Source: Glycomyces salinus
GTDB lineage: Bacteria > Actinomycetota > Actinomycetes > Mycobacteriales > Micromonosporaceae
NCBI RefSeq assembly: GCF_016428645.1
Contig: NZ_JAELXW010000010.1
Span: forward strand, 62,001 to 126,000
Direction: 5' to 3'
Length of the DNA stretch: 64,000 nt
A program made the translations under genes and the position numbers. Below the pieces are notes generated by a model. It had not been told where the DNA came from, ran no database searches, and saw nothing but the letters and a program-made list of their open reading frames with translations. Of this stretch, positions 4,156 to 59,517 are shown piece after piece. Numbering within the stretch: the stretch's first letter is position 1; every line of letters begins with the position of its first letter.

Positions 4156-5070
4156 ATGTCCGTAGTCGAGGATTCGATCAGCCAGCTCCGCGCCGTCCGC
4201 GACTCCATAGACGGCGGCCGGACTCAGGTGTCCAGCGCCTCCGAGGAGCTCGAACGGCATCAGGGAGCGATAGACCAGGCGTCCAGGGCGATAGAGGAAG
4301 TCTCGAATTCGACCGCCACGGCCGCGGACGGACTCGAGCAACTGGCGAGCGCGACCAGAGCCCTCAATTACGACTCCACGGCCGCCAGCGTCGAGAACGC
4401 CAAGGAGCGCGTCTCCAATGCCACCGCTCACCTGCTGGCGGCCCGGCAGCACGTCGAGCAGGCCGCCAGCGAGATCGGCCTGGTGCGCCGGACGCTCGGC
4501 GAGACCTCGGGCACTCTCGACCAGTCCGACACGGCCGTGGAAGAGGCGATCAGCCGGCTTTCGTCATTGCCGTTATCGGGCGGAGCCTCCGGCGGATCGG
4601 GCGCCCGGGAGTTCCTTTCGGAGTTGCGGTTCAAACTGCCCCGGAACCACATGAGACTGGGGAACCCGCATTCGCGGCACCGGCTCCGGAAGGTGGCCAA
4701 GAGCAAATACGTGGACAAGGAGAACACGGTCGCATTGCCCTACATCGATCTGGTGAAGGACGCCGAGGCCATCAGGTCGGGCAAGGCGCTGTGGAACAAG
4801 AAGACCGAGCGGTACCACGTCAACGGCCGCCAGTACGCGGCCAAGGACAAGGACGGCAAGACCAGGCTCTACCCGGTCGCGGGCGACGGCCTGATTCCGC
4901 TGACGAGCGGCGAGTACAAGGCGCTCCAGGGGATGATGCTCGCGGGAGGCGACCGGGCGAAGCGGCCCGAGCACTTCCTGAGAAACCTCAGCATCGGCGG
5001 TGGCGACTGGGACAGGGCCGCGGTGCTGTACGAACTCACCCGCGGGGACGAAGAGGGGGACCGTCCATGA
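4156..5070 (+). CDS. Polymorphic-toxin-like protein: coiled-coil N-domain with C-terminal toxin-like region
   Basis: 304 residues. Residues 1-150 are a long polar helical region with heptad-like spacing (start SVVEDSISQLRAVRDSI), ending in a Gly/Ser hinge (GGASGGSG). The tail (about 160-304) is basic and of different composition: NHMRLGNPHSRHRLRKVAKS, then RYHVNGRQYAAKDKDGKTRL and YPVAGDG...SGEYKAL. I recall the NGR-Y...YPV-G-G...EYKAL layout from the tails of some polymorphic toxins, but cannot assign a toxin family or activity. AAAGGAGA with ideal spacing decides the ATG at 4156 over the GTG at 4129. The stop overlaps the next gene by ATGA. The N-domain is repeated as the separate gene at 5692. 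No signal peptide is visible. Confidence 0.6.
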   Translation: MSVVEDSISQLRAVRDSIDGGRTQVSSASEELERHQGAIDQASRAIEEVSNSTATAADGLEQLASATRALNYDSTAASVENAKERVSNATAHLLAARQHVEQAASEIGLVRRTLGETSGTLDQSDTAVEEAISRLSSLPLSGGASGGSGAREFLSELRFKLPRNHMRLGNPHSRHRLRKVAKSKYVDKENTVALPYIDLVKDAEAIRSGKALWNKKTERYHVNGRQYAAKDKDGKTRLYPVAGDGLIPLTSGEYKALQGMMLAGGDRAKRPEHFLRNLSIGGGDWDRAAVLYELTRGDEEGDRP

Positions 5071-5636
5071 TCTTCGAGATCATCTTCGAGCGCGGCACGT
5101 CCGCTACCGCGCTCCGGGACGCGATGGCCGAGCGGTTCGCCGTCCCTTCAGAGAGCGTGTTCATCGGCACCACCGACGAACTCGAACGGCTCCTTCTGGA
5201 TCGCAAGGACATGCCGTACCCGATGGCCGTCATCGGCGGCGAACCGCGCTCGGGAGAGTTCAGCTGCTCGCTCACCGGCCACGACCAGCTGATCGAGGCG
5301 GTCGGCGGGCTCAGCGTGGTGGCGCTGGCGACCGTGCTGTCCAAGTCGACGGGGGCCCGCGCGCTGCTCGGCGACGGCGGGTACGTCTCGGAGTGCTTCA
5401 CGATGGTGACCCCCGACGGCTGGCACGGGCGGGTCATGCTCGCCGACGACGTCCTCGACGAACCGGTGTTCAACCTGGACTACGCCCTCCAGCCGGTCCC
5501 GTCCGATCCGTCGATCCCGGTCGTCGAGGAGGCCCACCAGAAGGGCTGGTACCCCGACGGCGAGGTGCCCGAGGCGGGCTACGCCTTTCCCGAGGACGAG
5601 CCGGAGGGGCCCTCGGCCCCCGATGGGCGAGAATGA
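5067..5636 (+). CDS. Putative immunity protein paired with the upstream toxin-like gene
   Basis: 189 residues, acidic, no recognised catalytic motif, signal peptide or membrane segment. It starts FEIIFERGTSATALRDAMAE and ends in a Pro/Glu/Asp-rich tail. The ATG overlaps the preceding stop (ATGA) and has AAGAGGGGGA before it, so translation is probably coupled, as expected for toxin-immunity pairs. The function rests on position, size and acidity against the basic toxin tail; I do not recognise a named immunity family. An unrelated accessory function is possible. Confidence 0.5.
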   Translation: MIFEIIFERGTSATALRDAMAERFAVPSESVFIGTTDELERLLLDRKDMPYPMAVIGGEPRSGEFSCSLTGHDQLIEAVGGLSVVALATVLSKSTGARALLGDGGYVSECFTMVTPDGWHGRVMLADDVLDEPVFNLDYALQPVPSDPSIPVVEEAHQKGWYPDGEVPEAGYAFPEDEPEGPSAPDGRE

Positions 5637-9226: not shown

Positions 9227-10143
9227 ACGGCGGGAAGAACGGAGCGGCGATGTCGCCGCGCGCGGTCGTGTGGGCGCGGCGGCGCCGGGCCCTGGCGCGC
9301 ACCTGGCGGGACTACCGGCGCCAGCGCGGCGGCATGGTCGGGCTGATCCTGCTCGGCGCGATCGTGCTCGCGGCGATCGGAGCGCCGCTGCTGGCCGACG
9401 GTTCCGGTCTGAGCGTCACCGAGGCCACCGGCGGCCGCATGGAGCCGCCGAGCGCGCGGTTCCCGCTCGGCACCGACGAGGTGGGCCGGTCGATACTGAC
9501 GCTGACGATCTGGGGCGCGCGGCTGTCGCTCCTGATCGGGCTGACCGCGACCGTGGTCGCCATCGTCATCGGCACCCTGATCGGCGTGACCAGCGGCCAC
9601 ATCGGAGGCTGGTACGGCTGGGTGGCGCTGCGCGTCTCGGACTGGTTCATGGTGCTGCCCAGCTTGGTCGTGGCGATCGCCCTGCTGGCGGTCATGGGCC
9701 GCAGCGCCGTCACGACGGTGGTGGTGATCGCGATCGTGTCGTGGTCGGGCACGGCCCGGCTGGTGCGGGCCCAGACGCTGACGGTGCGGGCCCGCCCGTA
9801 CCTGGAGCGGGCACGGGTGCTCGGGGCCGGCCACTGGCACCTGATGACCCGGCACATCCTGCCGAACGTACTTCCGCTGGTGCTGGCCAGCGCGACGCTG
9901 CTGGTGCCCAGCGCGATCCTGATGGAGTCCTCGCTGGCCTGGCTCGGCCTGGGCGACCCGAACATCGTCTCGTGGGGCTCGGTCCTGAACCGGGCCTGGC
10001 GCAACGGCGCGGTCTCGGCGCAGGCGTGGTGGTACCTGCTGCCGCCGGGCCTGGCGATCCTGGTGGTGGTGGCCGCGTTCATGATGTGCGGGCGCGCGCT
10101 CGAAGCGGTGTTCAACCCGCGGCTGCGGGGTGGGGGCCGGTGA
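9223..10143 (+). CDS. Peptide ABC transporter permease (DppC-like)
   Basis: 306 residues, second inner-membrane permease. The family-typical motif FPLGTDEVGRSILTLTIWGA is in the N-terminal third; the EAA-type loop is PYLERARVLGAGHWHLMTRH; the end carries SLAWLGLGDPNIVSWGSVLN, characteristic of DppC/OppC. The ATG overlaps the dppB-like stop by ATGA; a second ATG at 9250 with GGAG before it is an alternative start. The stop overlaps the next gene by GTGA. Confidence 0.93.
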   Translation: MNGGKNGAAMSPRAVVWARRRRALARTWRDYRRQRGGMVGLILLGAIVLAAIGAPLLADGSGLSVTEATGGRMEPPSARFPLGTDEVGRSILTLTIWGARLSLLIGLTATVVAIVIGTLIGVTSGHIGGWYGWVALRVSDWFMVLPSLVVAIALLAVMGRSAVTTVVVIAIVSWSGTARLVRAQTLTVRARPYLERARVLGAGHWHLMTRHILPNVLPLVLASATLLVPSAILMESSLAWLGLGDPNIVSWGSVLNRAWRNGAVSAQAWWYLLPPGLAILVVVAAFMMCGRALEAVFNPRLRGGGR

Positions 10144-32152: not shown

Positions 32153-32158
32153 TATCAT
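32153..32158 (+). promoter_or_regulatory. -10 element of the tRNA-like genes
   Basis: TATCAT, ending 9 nt before the first base of the extended acceptor helix (32168), so initiation would fall at or just before the tRNA-like transcript. The -35 is weak. The rest of 32020-32152 contains no recognised feature. Confidence 0.45.
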
Positions 32159-32167
32159 TCCGAGCAA

Positions 32168-32245
32168 TGCTCCGATGTAGCGCAGAGGCCGTCGCGCCTC
32201 CATGGCATGGAGGAGGACGCCGGTTCGAATCCGGCCACCGGAGCA
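32168..32245 (+). tRNA. tRNA-like gene 1, Ala-type anticodon GGC, extended acceptor helix
   Basis: A complete cloverleaf: acceptor 32171-32177/32236-32242 with one A-C mismatch (positions 5:68); U8; D arm GCGC with loop AGAGGCCG carrying A14 and G18G19; anticodon stem CCTCC/GGAGG and loop ATGGCAT (U33, anticodon GGC); 5-nt variable loop AGGAC; T arm GCCGG-TTCGAAT-CCGGC. The acceptor helix extends three more pairs outward (32168-32170 with 32243-32245) to 10 bp. No CCA is encoded. G21 replaces A21, and the 13:22 pair is C-U. It differs from normal actinobacterial tRNA-Ala, so it is called tRNA-like. It shares its core with the copy 4 nt downstream. Confidence 0.65.
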
Positions 32246-32249
32246 GGAC

Positions 32250-32327
32250 CCGTGGCCTGTAGCGCAGAGGCCGTCGCGCCGATACCGCATATCGGAGGAC
32301 GTCGGTTCGAATCCGACCAGGTCACGG
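32250..32327 (+). tRNA. tRNA-like gene 2, Ala-type anticodon CGC with G3:U70, extended acceptor helix
   Basis: Same architecture as the first copy, starting 4 nt after it. Acceptor 32253-32259/32318-32324 has a G3:U70 wobble, the AlaRS identity pair; three further pairs (32250-32252 with 32325-32327) again make a 10-bp helix. D arm is identical to copy 1. Anticodon stem CCGAT/ATCGG, loop ACCGCAT (anticodon CGC, but C33 in place of U33). Variable loop AGGAC. T arm GTCGG-TTCGAAT-CCGAC. Stems differ from copy 1 by compensatory changes. No CCA encoded. It ends 24 nt before the SDR start codon. Confidence 0.65.
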
Positions 32328-32351
32328 CATTCACGGTATGGGACGGGTGGC

Positions 32352-33680
32352 ATGGACGAGCCGACAGACGCGGAGTTGGAGGCGTTCGACGCGGTGGTCG
32401 CCAAGTTGCGTTCGCTGCCGGCCGATGACCGGACCAGGCTTCGTGCCGAACAGGTCGCCGCCTCATTCGTGCGGGACGGCCGACGACGGCGCAAGAAGTC
32501 GCGTGCGCAGCAGGATGCGGCCACGGACGGGGACACACTTGCCTCCACCGCCACCGGAAATCTGGAGCGACGGCCCGACGCTCCCCTGGCCGCGCCGGGG
32601 CGTCCGGGAACGCTGGCGCGGCCACGCCGATGTTATATCTGCAAGCGCAGCTACCGCCGAGTCGACGGTTTCTACCACCAGCTCTGCCCACCCTGTGCGT
32701 CCGAGAACTCGATACGCCGGCAGGCCGGCACCGACCTGACAGGGCGCAGCGTCCTGCTGACCGGCGGCCGCGTCAAGATCGGCTTCGAGTTGGCGCTGAT
32801 GATGCTCCGCGACGGGGCTGAAGTCACCGTCACTACCAGGTTCCCGAACGATGCGGTTCGCAGATTCCATAGCGTTCCGGGCAGCGAGGAGTGGTCGGAT
32901 CGTCTGGAGATCGTCGGGATAGACCTGCGTGATCCCCGCCAGGTCCTCGGCTTGTGCGATCGCCTGCTGACGCGGGGCCGACCGCTGGACATATTGGTCA
33001 ACAACGCCGCACAGACCCTGCGGCGCCCCGCCGAGTGCTACCAGGCACTGATCAAGAACGAGCTCGCCGCGCTCCCCGCGCGCAACGTGTGGAGCGCACC
33101 CGGTTACCGGACCCCGGAAGTCAGCGTCCTGCCCGCCGCGGCGCTCGATCTGGTCGCATCCGACGTCGACGCCGCCGGACTGCTGCCCGACGACTCGACG
33201 GCGAACTCCTGGTCTGCGCGACTCGGTGCCCTCGATCCGGCTGAAATCCTCGAAACCTACCTGGTCAACGCATTCACTCCCACGCTGCTGTGCGATAGGC
33301 TCCTGCCGCTCTTGACCGCGTCTTCCCACTCCCGGCGCTACATCGTCAACGTCACCGCCGTCGAAGGCCGGTTCGCGGTGCGCAACAAGACCGCGCGCCA
33401 CCCGCAGACCAACATGCCCAAGGCAGCGCTCAACATGCTCACCCGCACCAGCGGACCAAGTCTCGTCGAACAAGGCGTTTACATGTGCGCGGTCGACACC
33501 GGATGGATCACCGACGAGAATCCGGCTCCGAAGCGAGAGCGGATGGCGGCAAACGGATTCCGCACCCCACTGGACATCGTAGACGGGGCGGCACGCGTCT
33601 ACGACCCCATCGTGCGAGGCGAGGCGGGCTCGCCTGTGGCGGGTGTGCTCCTCAAGGACTACAGAGAGGTCGACTGGTGA
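32352..33680 (+). CDS. Zinc-ribbon SDR-fold protein linked to tRNA-like genes
   Basis: 442 residues. N-terminal helical, Arg-rich stretch with a basic patch (GRRRRKKSRAQ). A zinc-ribbon-like CYICKRSYRRVDGFY...LCPPC follows at about 98-118. Then an SDR Rossmann domain: TGGRVKIGFELALMML, the NNAAQT motif, VNVTAVEGRF, and TNMPKAALNML where the catalytic YxxxK normally stands, so Tyr is replaced by Thr and the active Ser by Ala while Lys remains. The end LLKDYREVDW is conserved in similar Streptomyces SDRs as I recall. Classical dehydrogenase chemistry is doubtful. Its stop overlaps the LRR gene start (GTGA). Only a weak GGGTGG ribosome site precedes the ATG. Confidence 0.75.
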   Translation: MDEPTDAELEAFDAVVAKLRSLPADDRTRLRAEQVAASFVRDGRRRRKKSRAQQDAATDGDTLASTATGNLERRPDAPLAAPGRPGTLARPRRCYICKRSYRRVDGFYHQLCPPCASENSIRRQAGTDLTGRSVLLTGGRVKIGFELALMMLRDGAEVTVTTRFPNDAVRRFHSVPGSEEWSDRLEIVGIDLRDPRQVLGLCDRLLTRGRPLDILVNNAAQTLRRPAECYQALIKNELAALPARNVWSAPGYRTPEVSVLPAAALDLVASDVDAAGLLPDDSTANSWSARLGALDPAEILETYLVNAFTPTLLCDRLLPLLTASSHSRRYIVNVTAVEGRFAVRNKTARHPQTNMPKAALNMLTRTSGPSLVEQGVYMCAVDTGWITDENPAPKRERMAANGFRTPLDIVDGAARVYDPIVRGEAGSPVAGVLLKDYREVDW

Positions 33681-34876
33681 CGGACGCACCCACAGAAACG
33701 TTCGCCGGGATCGGCCCTGTCGCTCCCCGCGCGGCAGTCGAACTCGGTGACTTGATCAGGTGGCTCGAATCTGGCGATCCCGCTGCGCGGCGGCTGGATT
33801 TCACCGCCGGCACCGCAATGCCAGACGGCCGTCTCGACCTGTGCAAACAGGCGCTCGGGCCCAACGGGGCAGCCCGTGTCACAGAGGCGCTTCGGCCGAG
33901 GCAGGTACGGCACCTGCTGCTCGGCACGAACGGACTGGGCGATCTCGGCGCCGACGCGGTCTCGGAGCGGGCGTCGTCTGCGGAACTCGAGACGCTATAT
34001 CTGGGTTGCAACGGCATCACGGCGGCGGGAGCCTGCCGCCTTGCGGACAACCTTCTGGCCTCCCCTCAAGTCCTGTCCGGGTTGTGGGTCAAACGGAACC
34101 CGATCGGGCCGGCCGGCGCCGAAGCAGTGACCGGCATTGTGTCCCGCCTTGAGCGCCTTCGAACGCTCGATCTCGTGCAGACTGGAATCGACGCTGAGGC
34201 CGCGGGTGTGCTCGTACCGACTCTGCTTGCCGCCTCGGATCGAGGGCAGGGCGTTGAGCGCCTCTATGTCAGCGGAAATCGGCTCGGGACGAAAGGCGCC
34301 GCCGCCTTGGCCCCCTTGGTCGCGAACGGAGCCGTATCGGAGCTGTACGTTTCCGCCGCAGGGCTGGGTGATCGCGGCGCGGAAGAATTCGGACGCGCGC
34401 TCAAGGCGGCGCCGTACGGCAGACTCAAGAGGCTATCGCTCGCCAGCAACGGGATCGGCCCAGAGGCGAGCGCGCGAGTTATCATTGCGGGAGTCGCCAA
34501 TGGAGTCGAAGTGCTGGACCTCGGCCGAGTAAAGGCGGCCAATGCACTCTCGGCCGCTGACAACCGCATCGACGAGTCGGCCGCCGAATCGATCGGCAGG
34601 GCGCTCTCGAAAGCGCCACATCACATGACGCACCTCGCCTTGGCGAACACCGGCATGCGCAGCCGCGAGGCGCAACGCCTCTTGGACTTCGCCGTGCACG
34701 CGCAAACGCCTACGCGCTACTTGCTCGGCAAGGGCATCGCGGCGAGCATTCGCACCCGACTCAACTCGCCTTGCGAACACCTGCCGCTCCGGCCTACCCC
34801 GAGTGCCGACGCCAAGGCCATCACCAGTCTCCACCGCAGCGCGGCCGGCGGAAGCCGTTCACCGCTGCCGAGATGA
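33677..34876 (+). CDS. RNase-inhibitor-like leucine-rich repeat protein
   Basis: 399 residues, no signal peptide or membrane segment. From about residue 70 to 350 it has 27-30-residue repeats of ribonuclease-inhibitor (RNI) type: LGTNGLGDLGADAVSE, LGCNGITAAGACRLADNL, KRNPIGPAGAEAV, SGNRLGTKGAAALAPL, ASNGIGPEASARVI. Such horseshoe proteins bind protein or RNA partners. GTG start overlapping the SDR stop shows a two-gene operon downstream of the tRNA-like genes. Function unknown. Confidence 0.8.
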   Translation: MTDAPTETFAGIGPVAPRAAVELGDLIRWLESGDPAARRLDFTAGTAMPDGRLDLCKQALGPNGAARVTEALRPRQVRHLLLGTNGLGDLGADAVSERASSAELETLYLGCNGITAAGACRLADNLLASPQVLSGLWVKRNPIGPAGAEAVTGIVSRLERLRTLDLVQTGIDAEAAGVLVPTLLAASDRGQGVERLYVSGNRLGTKGAAALAPLVANGAVSELYVSAAGLGDRGAEEFGRALKAAPYGRLKRLSLASNGIGPEASARVIIAGVANGVEVLDLGRVKAANALSAADNRIDESAAESIGRALSKAPHHMTHLALANTGMRSREAQRLLDFAVHAQTPTRYLLGKGIAASIRTRLNSPCEHLPLRPTPSADAKAITSLHRSAAGGSRSPLPR

Positions 34877-34879
34877 GCG

Positions 34880-35398
34880 CTATTCACTCGAGCGGGCCCG
34901 CTCCCGGTGGGCGCGGACCTTGGCGATGCTGCCACATGAACGGCCGTCGGGCCCGCCCGCGGTCATCAGGCACCAGCGTTTGCTGGCGTTGCGGCTGTGG
35001 TCGTAGAAGATCCAGCGGCAGTCCGGACAGGCTTTGAGCCGATTCCAGCGTGCGGCCGCGACAGCCTCCAGCACCGCGCAGACCAGATCCCCGGCAAGGC
35101 CGGAGCTGTGAGTGAAGTGCAGTCCGTTCTCCCCCACCTTCGGCTGAATCGCCAGTCGCTCGATCCAGGGGTTCACGATCTCCGCGGTGTCGGTGGACCG
35201 TTCGACCGCCGACCGTAGATCGTCTCGAAGCGCCTTGAGCCGACTCCGTTGCGATCGCGACGCTCCCGATCGTTCGACGTACTCGTCGAAGTGGTCCTCA
35301 GGTTCCCGGGTGTCGTTGGGGATCAACCAGGTATTGAGCAGGCCGCGAACCGCCTCGAGGCCATCCGGGGCCTCCTGACCACTAGAACTGTTAACCAC
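34880..35398 (-). CDS. CGNR zinc-finger-type regulator (ABATE domain)
   Basis: 172 residues. N-terminal ABATE-like helical domain (LEAVRGLLNTWLIPNDTREP). C-terminal zinc finger CPDCRWIFYDHSRNASKRWC ending in CGSI instead of the family CGNR, with further cysteines. These proteins are thought to bind DNA. The GTG at 35398 follows a TATGAT -10 by 6 nt, so the mRNA is probably leaderless; the frame is open further upstream (to 35647), but that part overlaps the divergent gene. Tail-to-tail with the LRR gene (3 bp apart). Confidence 0.75.
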   Translation of the reverse strand: MVNSSSGQEAPDGLEAVRGLLNTWLIPNDTREPEDHFDEYVERSGASRSQRSRLKALRDDLRSAVERSTDTAEIVNPWIERLAIQPKVGENGLHFTHSSGLAGDLVCAVLEAVAAARWNRLKACPDCRWIFYDHSRNASKRWCLMTAGGPDGRSCGSIAKVRAHRERARSSE

Positions 35399-35404
35399 CG
35401 AACA

Positions 35405-35417
35405 ATCATACCGGTAT
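35405..35417. promoter_or_regulatory. Divergent leaderless promoters with shared palindrome ATACCGGTAT
   Basis: The perfect palindrome ATACCGGTAT (35408-35417) overlaps the minus-strand -10 TATGAT (35410-35405), which precedes the CGNR GTG by 6 nt. On the plus strand, TAACCT (35438-35443) precedes an ATG at 35450 by 6 nt. One bound regulator could control both genes. Confidence 0.45.
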
Positions 35418-35443
35418 ACAAGCCATCCGACTCGTGCTAACCT

Positions 35444-35974
35444 ATGAAAATGATAGCTGGTTATCACTTGGCTGAGCTCCACGCTGCGGGTCCGCACCCG
35501 GGCCTCGGGTCCGGACTCTCGCTCTTCGGCCAGTTCATAGGGAGTTGGGACCTGCGCGTCCGCTTCTTCAACGAGGAAGGCGACGTCTCCTTTGACGAAC
35601 CGGGGACCTGGTCGTTCGGCTGGATTCTCGACGGACGGGCAGTCCAAGACCTCCTCACCTACCCGAATGCGGGGAGCGCGCGACCGGGCGAACGGGGCAT
35701 CGGCACGTCTATACGGCTATACGACGCCGCAACCGGCACCTGGAGCGTCTACTGGCTCGGTGCGACTTCGAACACCCGGATCACCCTGACCGCCAAGGCG
35801 ACCGACGATGGCATACGACTGGACGGCCCCGACGTCGACGGCAGCCCACTGCGCTGGACCTTCACCGACATCACCCCCGGCAGCTTCCAGTGGCAGGGTC
35901 GAATCCAAGATGCCGACGGCTCCTGGCGTCTGGAACAGGACATGCTCGCGCACCGCCGCAAGGACCGCGGATGA
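35444..35974 (+). CDS. DUF1579-like calycin-fold protein
   Basis: 176 residues if started at 35444 (174 from the ATG at 35450, which better fits a leaderless transcript). LFGQFIGSWDLRVRFFNEEG and WSFGWILDGRAVQDLL, followed by alternating strands (GTSIRLYDAATGTWSVYWLG), match DUF1579-like beta-barrel proteins of unknown function. Divergent from the CGNR gene. Its stop overlaps the next start by ATGA. Confidence 0.7.
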   Translation: MKMIAGYHLAELHAAGPHPGLGSGLSLFGQFIGSWDLRVRFFNEEGDVSFDEPGTWSFGWILDGRAVQDLLTYPNAGSARPGERGIGTSIRLYDAATGTWSVYWLGATSNTRITLTAKATDDGIRLDGPDVDGSPLRWTFTDITPGSFQWQGRIQDADGSWRLEQDMLAHRRKDRG

Positions 35975-59218: not shown

Positions 59219-59319
59219 CGGGTGGTTCCCCCTACCTGCTGCTGTATCGGTGCGCACGCAGGCGGGGTGAGAGAATGCACGCGGGGCCGGGCGGTCTCCC
59301 GTGGCTCCGCGACGCGTCT

Positions 59320-59448
59320 GCTCCCATCCGGACTCTGACCGTCGGTCCCGGATTCTCACCGGGTCAACCGTCCGCTGGCTGCGGACGGGTCGCGGACTTG
59401 CGGCTCTGGAGCCGCTCACCGCCGGTTCGGAATTTCACCGACCCCGCT
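59320..59448 (-). promoter_or_regulatory. FMN riboswitch (RFN element)
   Basis: Minus-strand leader of ribE. It opens with GGGGTCGGTGAAATTCCGAA and CCGGCGGTGAGC, then contains AGTCCGCGACCC, a variable helix (CGTCCGC...GCGGACG), GGTGAGAATCC, GGGACCGACGGTCAGAGTCC and closing GGATGGGAG. These are the conserved RFN blocks in order. FMN binding should repress ribE-ribBA-ribH. Confidence 0.92.
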
Positions 59449-59517
59449 GACGCGCGATTGCTATCCAGAATTCTGCCACGGCCGCAAGTGAGAGGTCTCT
59501 ATTCCGTGAGTGTTGTC

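Follow-up and report, generated by a model that had tools for sequence, protein, structure and literature searches.

The window analysed here, a stretch of 64,000 nucleotides (nt) of a Glycomyces salinus contig whose positions are counted from its first letter, carries two transfer RNA (tRNA)-like elements ahead of two overlapping genes, encoding a zinc-ribbon protein of the short-chain dehydrogenase/reductase (SDR) type and a leucine-rich repeat (LRR) protein of the ribonuclease-inhibitor (RNI) type. The locus looks like a member of an RNA-protein system of actinobacteria, the linkage between RNA and protein genes being shown by computation. Its RNAs copy the codon-reading arm of tRNAs on a body that is apparently unfit for translation, and they stand beside recurring protein genes; the whole therefore looks like an undescribed RNA-protein system, and we found no published description of it in the open-licence literature. 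We tentatively propose that the RNAs are anticodon-arm mimics.

Both elements fold as cloverleaves (z = -2.70 and -2.67) and lie 4 nt apart, with a -10-like box at the 5' end, exactly where an earlier note made from the sequence alone had placed them (Table 1). The overlapping SDR and LRR genes that it had described could likewise be traced in the sequence: the SDR start codon lies 24 nt past element 2, and the GTG start of the LRR gene overlaps the SDR stop at 33677-33680. ARAGORN assigns both elements to tRNA-Ala (GGC and CGC), and both pass the Rfam RF00005 cut-off of 29 (49.3 bits for element 1 and 43.4 bits for element 2), as the two lowest-scoring of 52 matches to this family in the genome. 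Instead of the 7-base-pair (bp) acceptor stem of a translating tRNA, each pairs over 10 bp, element 1 through UGCUCCGAUG/CACCGGAGCA with one A.C mismatch and element 2 through CCGUGGCCUG/CAGGUCACGG with one G.U pair. Position 33 is U in element 1 and C in element 2. Gene finders such as ARAGORN list these RNAs as ordinary tRNA genes, and they can therefore escape notice.

Table 1. Features of the locus in the window, with the evidence for each (R1, covariance model of the RNA family).
Feature	Position	Strand	Evidence
-10-like box TATCAT	32153..32158	+	sequence; TANNNT box recurrent at first elements
tRNA-like element 1, anticodon loop AUGGCAU (GGC)	32168..32245	+	ARAGORN, Rfam, fold, R1 80.3 bits
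tRNA-like element 2, anticodon loop ACCGCAU (CGC, C at position 33)	32250..32327	+	ARAGORN, Rfam, fold, R1 78.4 bits
Zinc-ribbon SDR protein, 442 amino acids, TNMPK replacing YxxxK	32352..33680	+	Pfam, alignment, model and fold match
RNI-type LRR protein, 399 amino acids, GTG start	33677..34876	+	Pfam LRR_6, model, PDB profile, fold

The combination recurs well beyond the window. When named bacterial and archaeal genomes were searched with the SDR protein, 114 relatives came up, of which the best 80 loci were analysed. Most belong to Streptomyces and Kitasatospora; Actinacidiphila, Allokutzneria, Saccharothrix, Phytomonospora, Wenjunlia and a record named Streptosporangium contributed one or a few each. 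In 59 of these 80 loci a tRNA lies upstream of the SDR gene according to ARAGORN, a program that has no model of this family, and because all had been fetched by the SDR protein alone, the association is not due to chance. The adjacency search with a covariance model that the earlier note had proposed points the same way: using R1, a model built from 62 elements, we found one or more elements upstream of the SDR gene in 60 of the 80 loci and none at 20, and an LRR homologue follows the SDR gene in 39. Of the loci lacking an element, one (L090) is on a contig that carries an element of 81 bits ∼9 kb farther upstream; the other 19 such genomes hold nothing above 65.7 bits with R1, which is the housekeeping level. 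The central idea of the earlier note, that of one system made of RNAs and proteins, is thus supported and withstands the co-occurrence half of the refuting condition set there: such RNAs are found next to SDR and LRR homologues much more often than chance would allow.

Whole genomes gave a consistent picture. Of 150 genomes of the window's order, 6 have the core pattern of the RNAs and 144 do not, its reversed version occurring in 0, and the LRR protein was found in 5 of 298 genomes of the order. The four LRR genomes among the 150 (G000, G033, G111, G133) all fall within the six with the core pattern, G111 having a partial LRR match that lies far from the RNA; a further genome, G236, has SDR and LRR genes and no element in the locus. 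In 31 genomes chosen for their element-bearing loci, 59 of the 68 pattern matches fall, by contig position, at SDR loci and five at loci of a diverged LRR family (LRR2, see below), and four are stand-alone elements of the CCA type, again with 0 matches to the reversed pattern. Counting whole genomes and LRR2, 45 of 81 genomes have RNA and LRR, 17 RNA only, none LRR only and 19 neither (Fisher 5.7e-9). A fortuitous neighbourhood or an integration site, tRNA genes often flanking genomic islands, can hardly account for these loci: in several families, two to five elements of one orientation precede the same gene, the core pattern is as rare in the order as described, and the same association is seen at LRR2 loci.

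In a tree of 93 SDR rows, element bearers and non-bearers are mixed in one well-supported clade of 83, with 6 changes over all rows; eight more distant SDRs in the tree are without elements. Outside the 80 loci, two apparently decayed elements precede an intact-looking SDR relative (L135, 1279-1428). SDR relatives also occur in 23 plasmid records; of four inspected, one, from Deinococcus, has an upstream tRNA gene. This Ala(TGC)-type element (L131, 3540-3742) lies just upstream of the SDR relative, with a weak second match nearby on the opposite strand; it scores 44.4 bits with R1 and has a different D-loop, so that its membership rests on position, and this one case makes a link across phyla possible. 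We found no SDR match in phage records, no confirmed SDR relative in viral contigs (searched by exact peptide patterns) and no LRR match on plasmids. A looser pattern hit at least 120 stretches of viral contigs, on which nothing here relies.

The RNAs behave as a structured family. After length, pairing and redundancy filters, 62 of 135 elements were aligned (set A1, the basis of R1). The near-identical cores with compensated stems noticed for the window pair hold over all of these: 95.8% of paired cells are standard, 16 of 21 pairs have two-sided changes, and 0 of 500 shuffles equal the observed covariation. The D-arm core and the T-arm are near-invariant, and the acceptor and anticodon arms vary; the family thus keeps a tRNA elbow, with a short D-loop AGAGGCAG and the T-arm GGUUCGAAUCC. 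In 102 of 111 first elements, acceptor nucleotide 1 is preceded at a distance of 24 to 10 nt by a TANNNT box (shuffles gave 6.3 on average and 13 at most), and first elements likely have promoters of their own, judging from this motif.

Four stand-alone elements (L164-L167, around 4730-5160 of each) have a Trp-like CCA arm, acceptor stems of 11-12 bp and no consistent neighbour gene; the one of L165 is followed by a strong hairpin. These bear on the view that the tRNA-like structures are cis-acting leaders, which would form the start of the mRNA and govern how it is processed or translated, possibly under feedback from the SDR or LRR protein. The position of first elements directly after a -10 box and ahead of a gene would suit such a role, as would the close start codon in the window. 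The elements that stand by themselves (L164-L167), the hairpin after the one of L165 and the location of some other elements 3' of the SDR or LRR gene speak against it, and the mimicry of anticodon arms described below would be left unexplained; we regard this role as quite unlikely.

What varies in the family is above all the codon-reading end. The full set (A3) holds 150 of 155 matches, 147 of which were used for the statistics on arms: their anticodons are GCC (24), GGC (23), CTC (22), CCA (22), GTC (17), GCT (13), CGC (9), GCA (7) and others (10), and the exchanged anticodon arms resemble those of Ala, Gly, Asp, Glu, Ser, Cys and Trp tRNAs. Anticodons differ even between the loci of close relatives. 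Where at least two elements precede the SDR gene, the distal ones favour GCC, GGC and GCT and the proximal ones GTC, CTC and CGC; elements 3' of the SDR gene have CCA in 21 of 25 cases. Adjacent elements share an anticodon at 1 of 45 loci versus 4.1 expected (P = 0.064; unique pairs P = 0.10), and as this deficit is not significant, a complementarity of anticodons within arrays was rejected.

The arms were compared with housekeeping arms from one Streptomyces genome, covering part of its tRNA genes. Over 17 nt, four of the 89 distinct arms match housekeeping arms exactly (Trp CCA, Glu CTC, Ala GGC and Asp GTC). For the 86 of these 89 arms that entered the test, a sample that includes related, non-independent elements, mean identity to the same-anticodon arm outside the anticodon is 9.03 of 14 positions versus 6.68 with shuffled labels, and 0 of 2000 shuffles were as high. 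The arm of window element 1 agrees over its inner 13 nt with that of the genome's own tRNA-Ala GGC. The Streptomyces genome that supplied the housekeeping arms (G684, L170-L219) also has a tRNA-like gene with a four-base anticodon, ctga, according to ARAGORN.

Outside the anticodon arm, the RNAs seem ill suited to translation, with long acceptor stems and identity elements that mostly mismatch those needed for charging. Acceptor stems of at least 9 bp were counted in 70 of 138 SDR-locus elements versus 11 of 44 housekeeping scans, with one mismatch and no bulge allowed, so that some bulged stems were counted short; all nine distinct elements of L153-L156 and L164-L168 have stems of 11-12 bp. 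All 13 Ser-type elements are without the long variable arm, G3:U70 (in 7-bp numbering) is found in 3 of 32 Ala-type elements including element 2 of the window and not element 1, and position 73 of Gly and Cys types is A or G, rarely C or U. Long stems and missing identity elements support the impression, formed from the window alone, that neither RNA is a housekeeping tRNA. The opposing view would have the elements charged and reading codons, as extra or mistranslating tRNAs, for which the Streptomyces tRNA-ProA, described as charged by its own synthetase ProRSx, is a precedent (PMC9437257). It would fit with the canonical elbow, with U33 in 129 of 147 elements and with the plain 7-bp stem of many proximal elements, all as in a working tRNA. 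The identity elements just listed, C37 in 29 of 147 elements, the long stems and the lack of an aminoacyl-tRNA synthetase gene adjoining the window elements oppose it, and we give it a small probability.

The window SDR protein matches adh_short and adh_short_C2 in Pfam, its model (predicted local distance difference test, pLDDT, 76.5) matches the Rossmann fold of classical SDRs, and in the alignment the zinc ribbon is invariant and TNMxK replaces the catalytic YxxxK in 33 of 33 rows (the structure alignment omits eight rows of the first alignment: L130-L133, L141 and L144-L146). The LRR protein matches Pfam LRR_6 and gave a model of pLDDT 88.5; its best PDB profile match is the mammalian ribonuclease inhibitor, and its fold search returned an NLRP2 structure first and ribonuclease inhibitor second. 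Profile and model comparisons have in this way confirmed both fold predictions of the earlier note, an SDR fold with a zinc ribbon and an RNI-type protein, that is, leucine-rich repeats with a predicted ribonuclease-inhibitor fold. PADLOC gave no match for either window protein. The LRR alignment omits L034, L035, L036, L154, L155 and L156. Recoding in LRR genes, considered because six homologues were each flagged with one in-frame TGA, was rejected, tblastn placing stops only at the C-terminal end, if anywhere; a frameshift inside the LRR gene of L056 and another break in that of L072 are taken as assembly errors or decay.

A nucleotide-cofactor fold beside tRNA-like molecules could also mean that these are aminoacyl-tRNA donors for a reduction or transfer by the SDR protein off the ribosome, tRNA-dependent biosynthesis being common in Streptomyces. 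This is very unlikely: the SDR protein is without the catalytic Tyr, charging identity is poor, and anticodons change between close relatives, so that the donated amino acid would change too.

A second type of locus extends the system. A query with LRR2 matched 18 of 394 genomes, 13 of them with LRR2-type proteins (64-82% identity) and five with the window type. R1 elements are present in the loci of all 13 LRR2 genes, directly upstream in eight, ∼1.4 kb upstream in two and in wider stretches in three, and the order RNA-SDR-LRR2 is seen in five. The R1 scores of LRR2-linked elements, about 47-80 bits with the weakest at 47, overlap those of housekeeping tRNAs (up to 65.7), and the assignment of these elements therefore rests also on position and core sequence. 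An ankyrin protein is encoded next in 11 of the 13 LRR2 genomes, and of the 13 type 2 loci whose downstream sequence is long enough, nine continue with a MoxR ATPase and a vWA/DUF2201 protein (G884, G804, G815, G832, G133, G652, G682, G033 and G845); L245, L162 and L243 have neither, and L242 has a vWA piece only.

The N-terminal part of the ankyrin protein also adjoins MoxR and vWA genes on Streptomyces plasmids, with no R1 element in the three of nine records that were inspected; the MoxR-vWA unit can therefore occur by itself, and the RNA, SDR and LRR give the impression of an input added to it. A DUF2201-vWA relative is present in 13 of 18 genomes tried, some of them without the RNAs, so that its mere presence says little. 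PADLOC matched the ankyrin proteins over their ankyrin repeats only, and no confirmed relative of the ankyrin protein was found in viral contigs. As to other neighbours, a tRNA-like element directly precedes a gene for an APH-like kinase, which matches TCAD9 weakly (L160, 5860-6999), and another precedes an ankyrin protein gene in L162. Of the two kinds of function that the earlier note had suggested, conflict or translation control, the ankyrin-MoxR-vWA continuation of the related loci leans, by gene content, towards a conflict-type system.

Taken together, we put a probability of roughly 0.38 on the RNAs being anticodon-arm mimics that serve as bait or decoy and are not translation adaptors. 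They would act in trans through the anticodon arm while held by the elbow, presenting a genuine-looking arm to an agent that reads or cuts such arms. The agent that fits best, we infer, is one that reads anticodon arms irrespective of the remaining molecule; anticodon nucleases such as VapC or AriB of PARIS are the obvious class, and the attacker may be such a nuclease that belongs to a toxin, to a rival or to a defence triggered by phage. The SDR and LRR proteins would grip the elbow and then shield the RNA or sense its cleavage, and at type 2 loci the signal may pass to the ankyrin protein and the MoxR ATPase-vWA pair.

Several observations weigh against this proposal. The locus itself includes no nuclease gene. 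Only 25 of 86 arms have the same-anticodon housekeeping arm as their best or tied match, and the arm statistics are weakened by the relatedness of the elements. The prevalence of U33, the many plain 7-bp stems, the G3:U70 pair of window element 2 and the housekeeping figure for long stems, all given above, are features expected of working tRNAs or shared with them. On the side of the linkage, L163 has SDR and LRR genes and no element even with filters off, no LRR was found in 17 of 62 RNA-bearing genomes, and the tree-corrected test of RNA against LRR has no power, with 4 changes of RNA state.

The same elbow and partners could serve a scaffold that senses no attack, the RNAs tethering or gating a complex that serves in the quality control of RNA or in modifying tRNA, by analogy with the Y RNA YrlA, a bacterial non-coding tRNA mimic that works with the protein partner Ro60. 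A conserved elbow, a dispensable acceptor end and dedicated proteins would be expected of it; the exchange of anticodon arms would not, and no Y RNA match at gathering score was obtained with Rfam in the window. We consider such a scaffold unlikely.

Should the RNAs indeed be anticodon-arm mimics with dedicated partners, they would be a bacterial way to watch or shield the tRNA pool, and type 2 loci would give the MoxR-vWA machine an RNA input. It is conceivable, if somewhat doubtful, that the loci represent a new class of immune or stress system, made of anticodon-arm baits that can be exchanged on a tRNA scaffold that cannot be charged, and of an SDR-LRR(-ankyrin) reader, wired in type 2 to MoxR-vWA. 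Such a class would be a bacterial guard of the tRNA pool whose bait repertoire evolves fast by arm swapping. Arms that are exchanged while the body stays constant lend themselves to a direct experiment on the mimicked target.

Elsewhere in the window, a gene for a CGNR zinc-finger protein (34880-35647, minus strand) is convergent with the LRR gene, and a flavin mononucleotide (FMN) riboswitch lies at 59312-59455 on the minus strand (Rfam, 96.5 bits). ARAGORN also lists a tRNA-His at 9656-9752 on the plus strand, which is below the Rfam cut-off and probably spurious.

Among known systems, the allo-tRNAs that Mukai and colleagues are said to have described in 2017 reportedly have novel cloverleaf structures with lengthened acceptor stems and keep a 12-bp acceptor branch; the lengthening is shared, whereas here the T stem stays at 5 bp and the acceptor stem reaches 10-14 bp. 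The window elements would be like YrlA in joining a tRNA-mimicking non-coding RNA to a protein partner, but they are whole cloverleaves with exchangeable anticodon arms, unmatched by the Y RNA families of Rfam. The tRNA-Other of Bacillus cereus is described as a non-translating tRNA-like element that is part of a larger regulatory RNA (PMC3399842); the RNAs here would share its lack of a role in translation, as far as their sequences indicate, whereas tRNA-Other is single and lies at an island, and the abstract names no SDR or LRR partner. With tRNA-ProA and ProRSx (PMC9437257) the window locus has in common an odd tRNA, an Ala anticodon and a dedicated partner gene, which in our case is not a synthetase. 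Finally, MoxR-vWA ternary conflict systems have been described (Kaur et al., 2020; PMC7159879) in a main text that mentions tRNA once and neither ankyrin nor DUF2201. The window operon has no MoxR or vWA gene (tblastn of the window gave no match) and its genome no DUF2201-vWA match, and we therefore do not file the locus as a member of these systems; type 2 loci, unlike it, resemble them in pairing a MoxR ATPase and a vWA protein with a third, variable protein.

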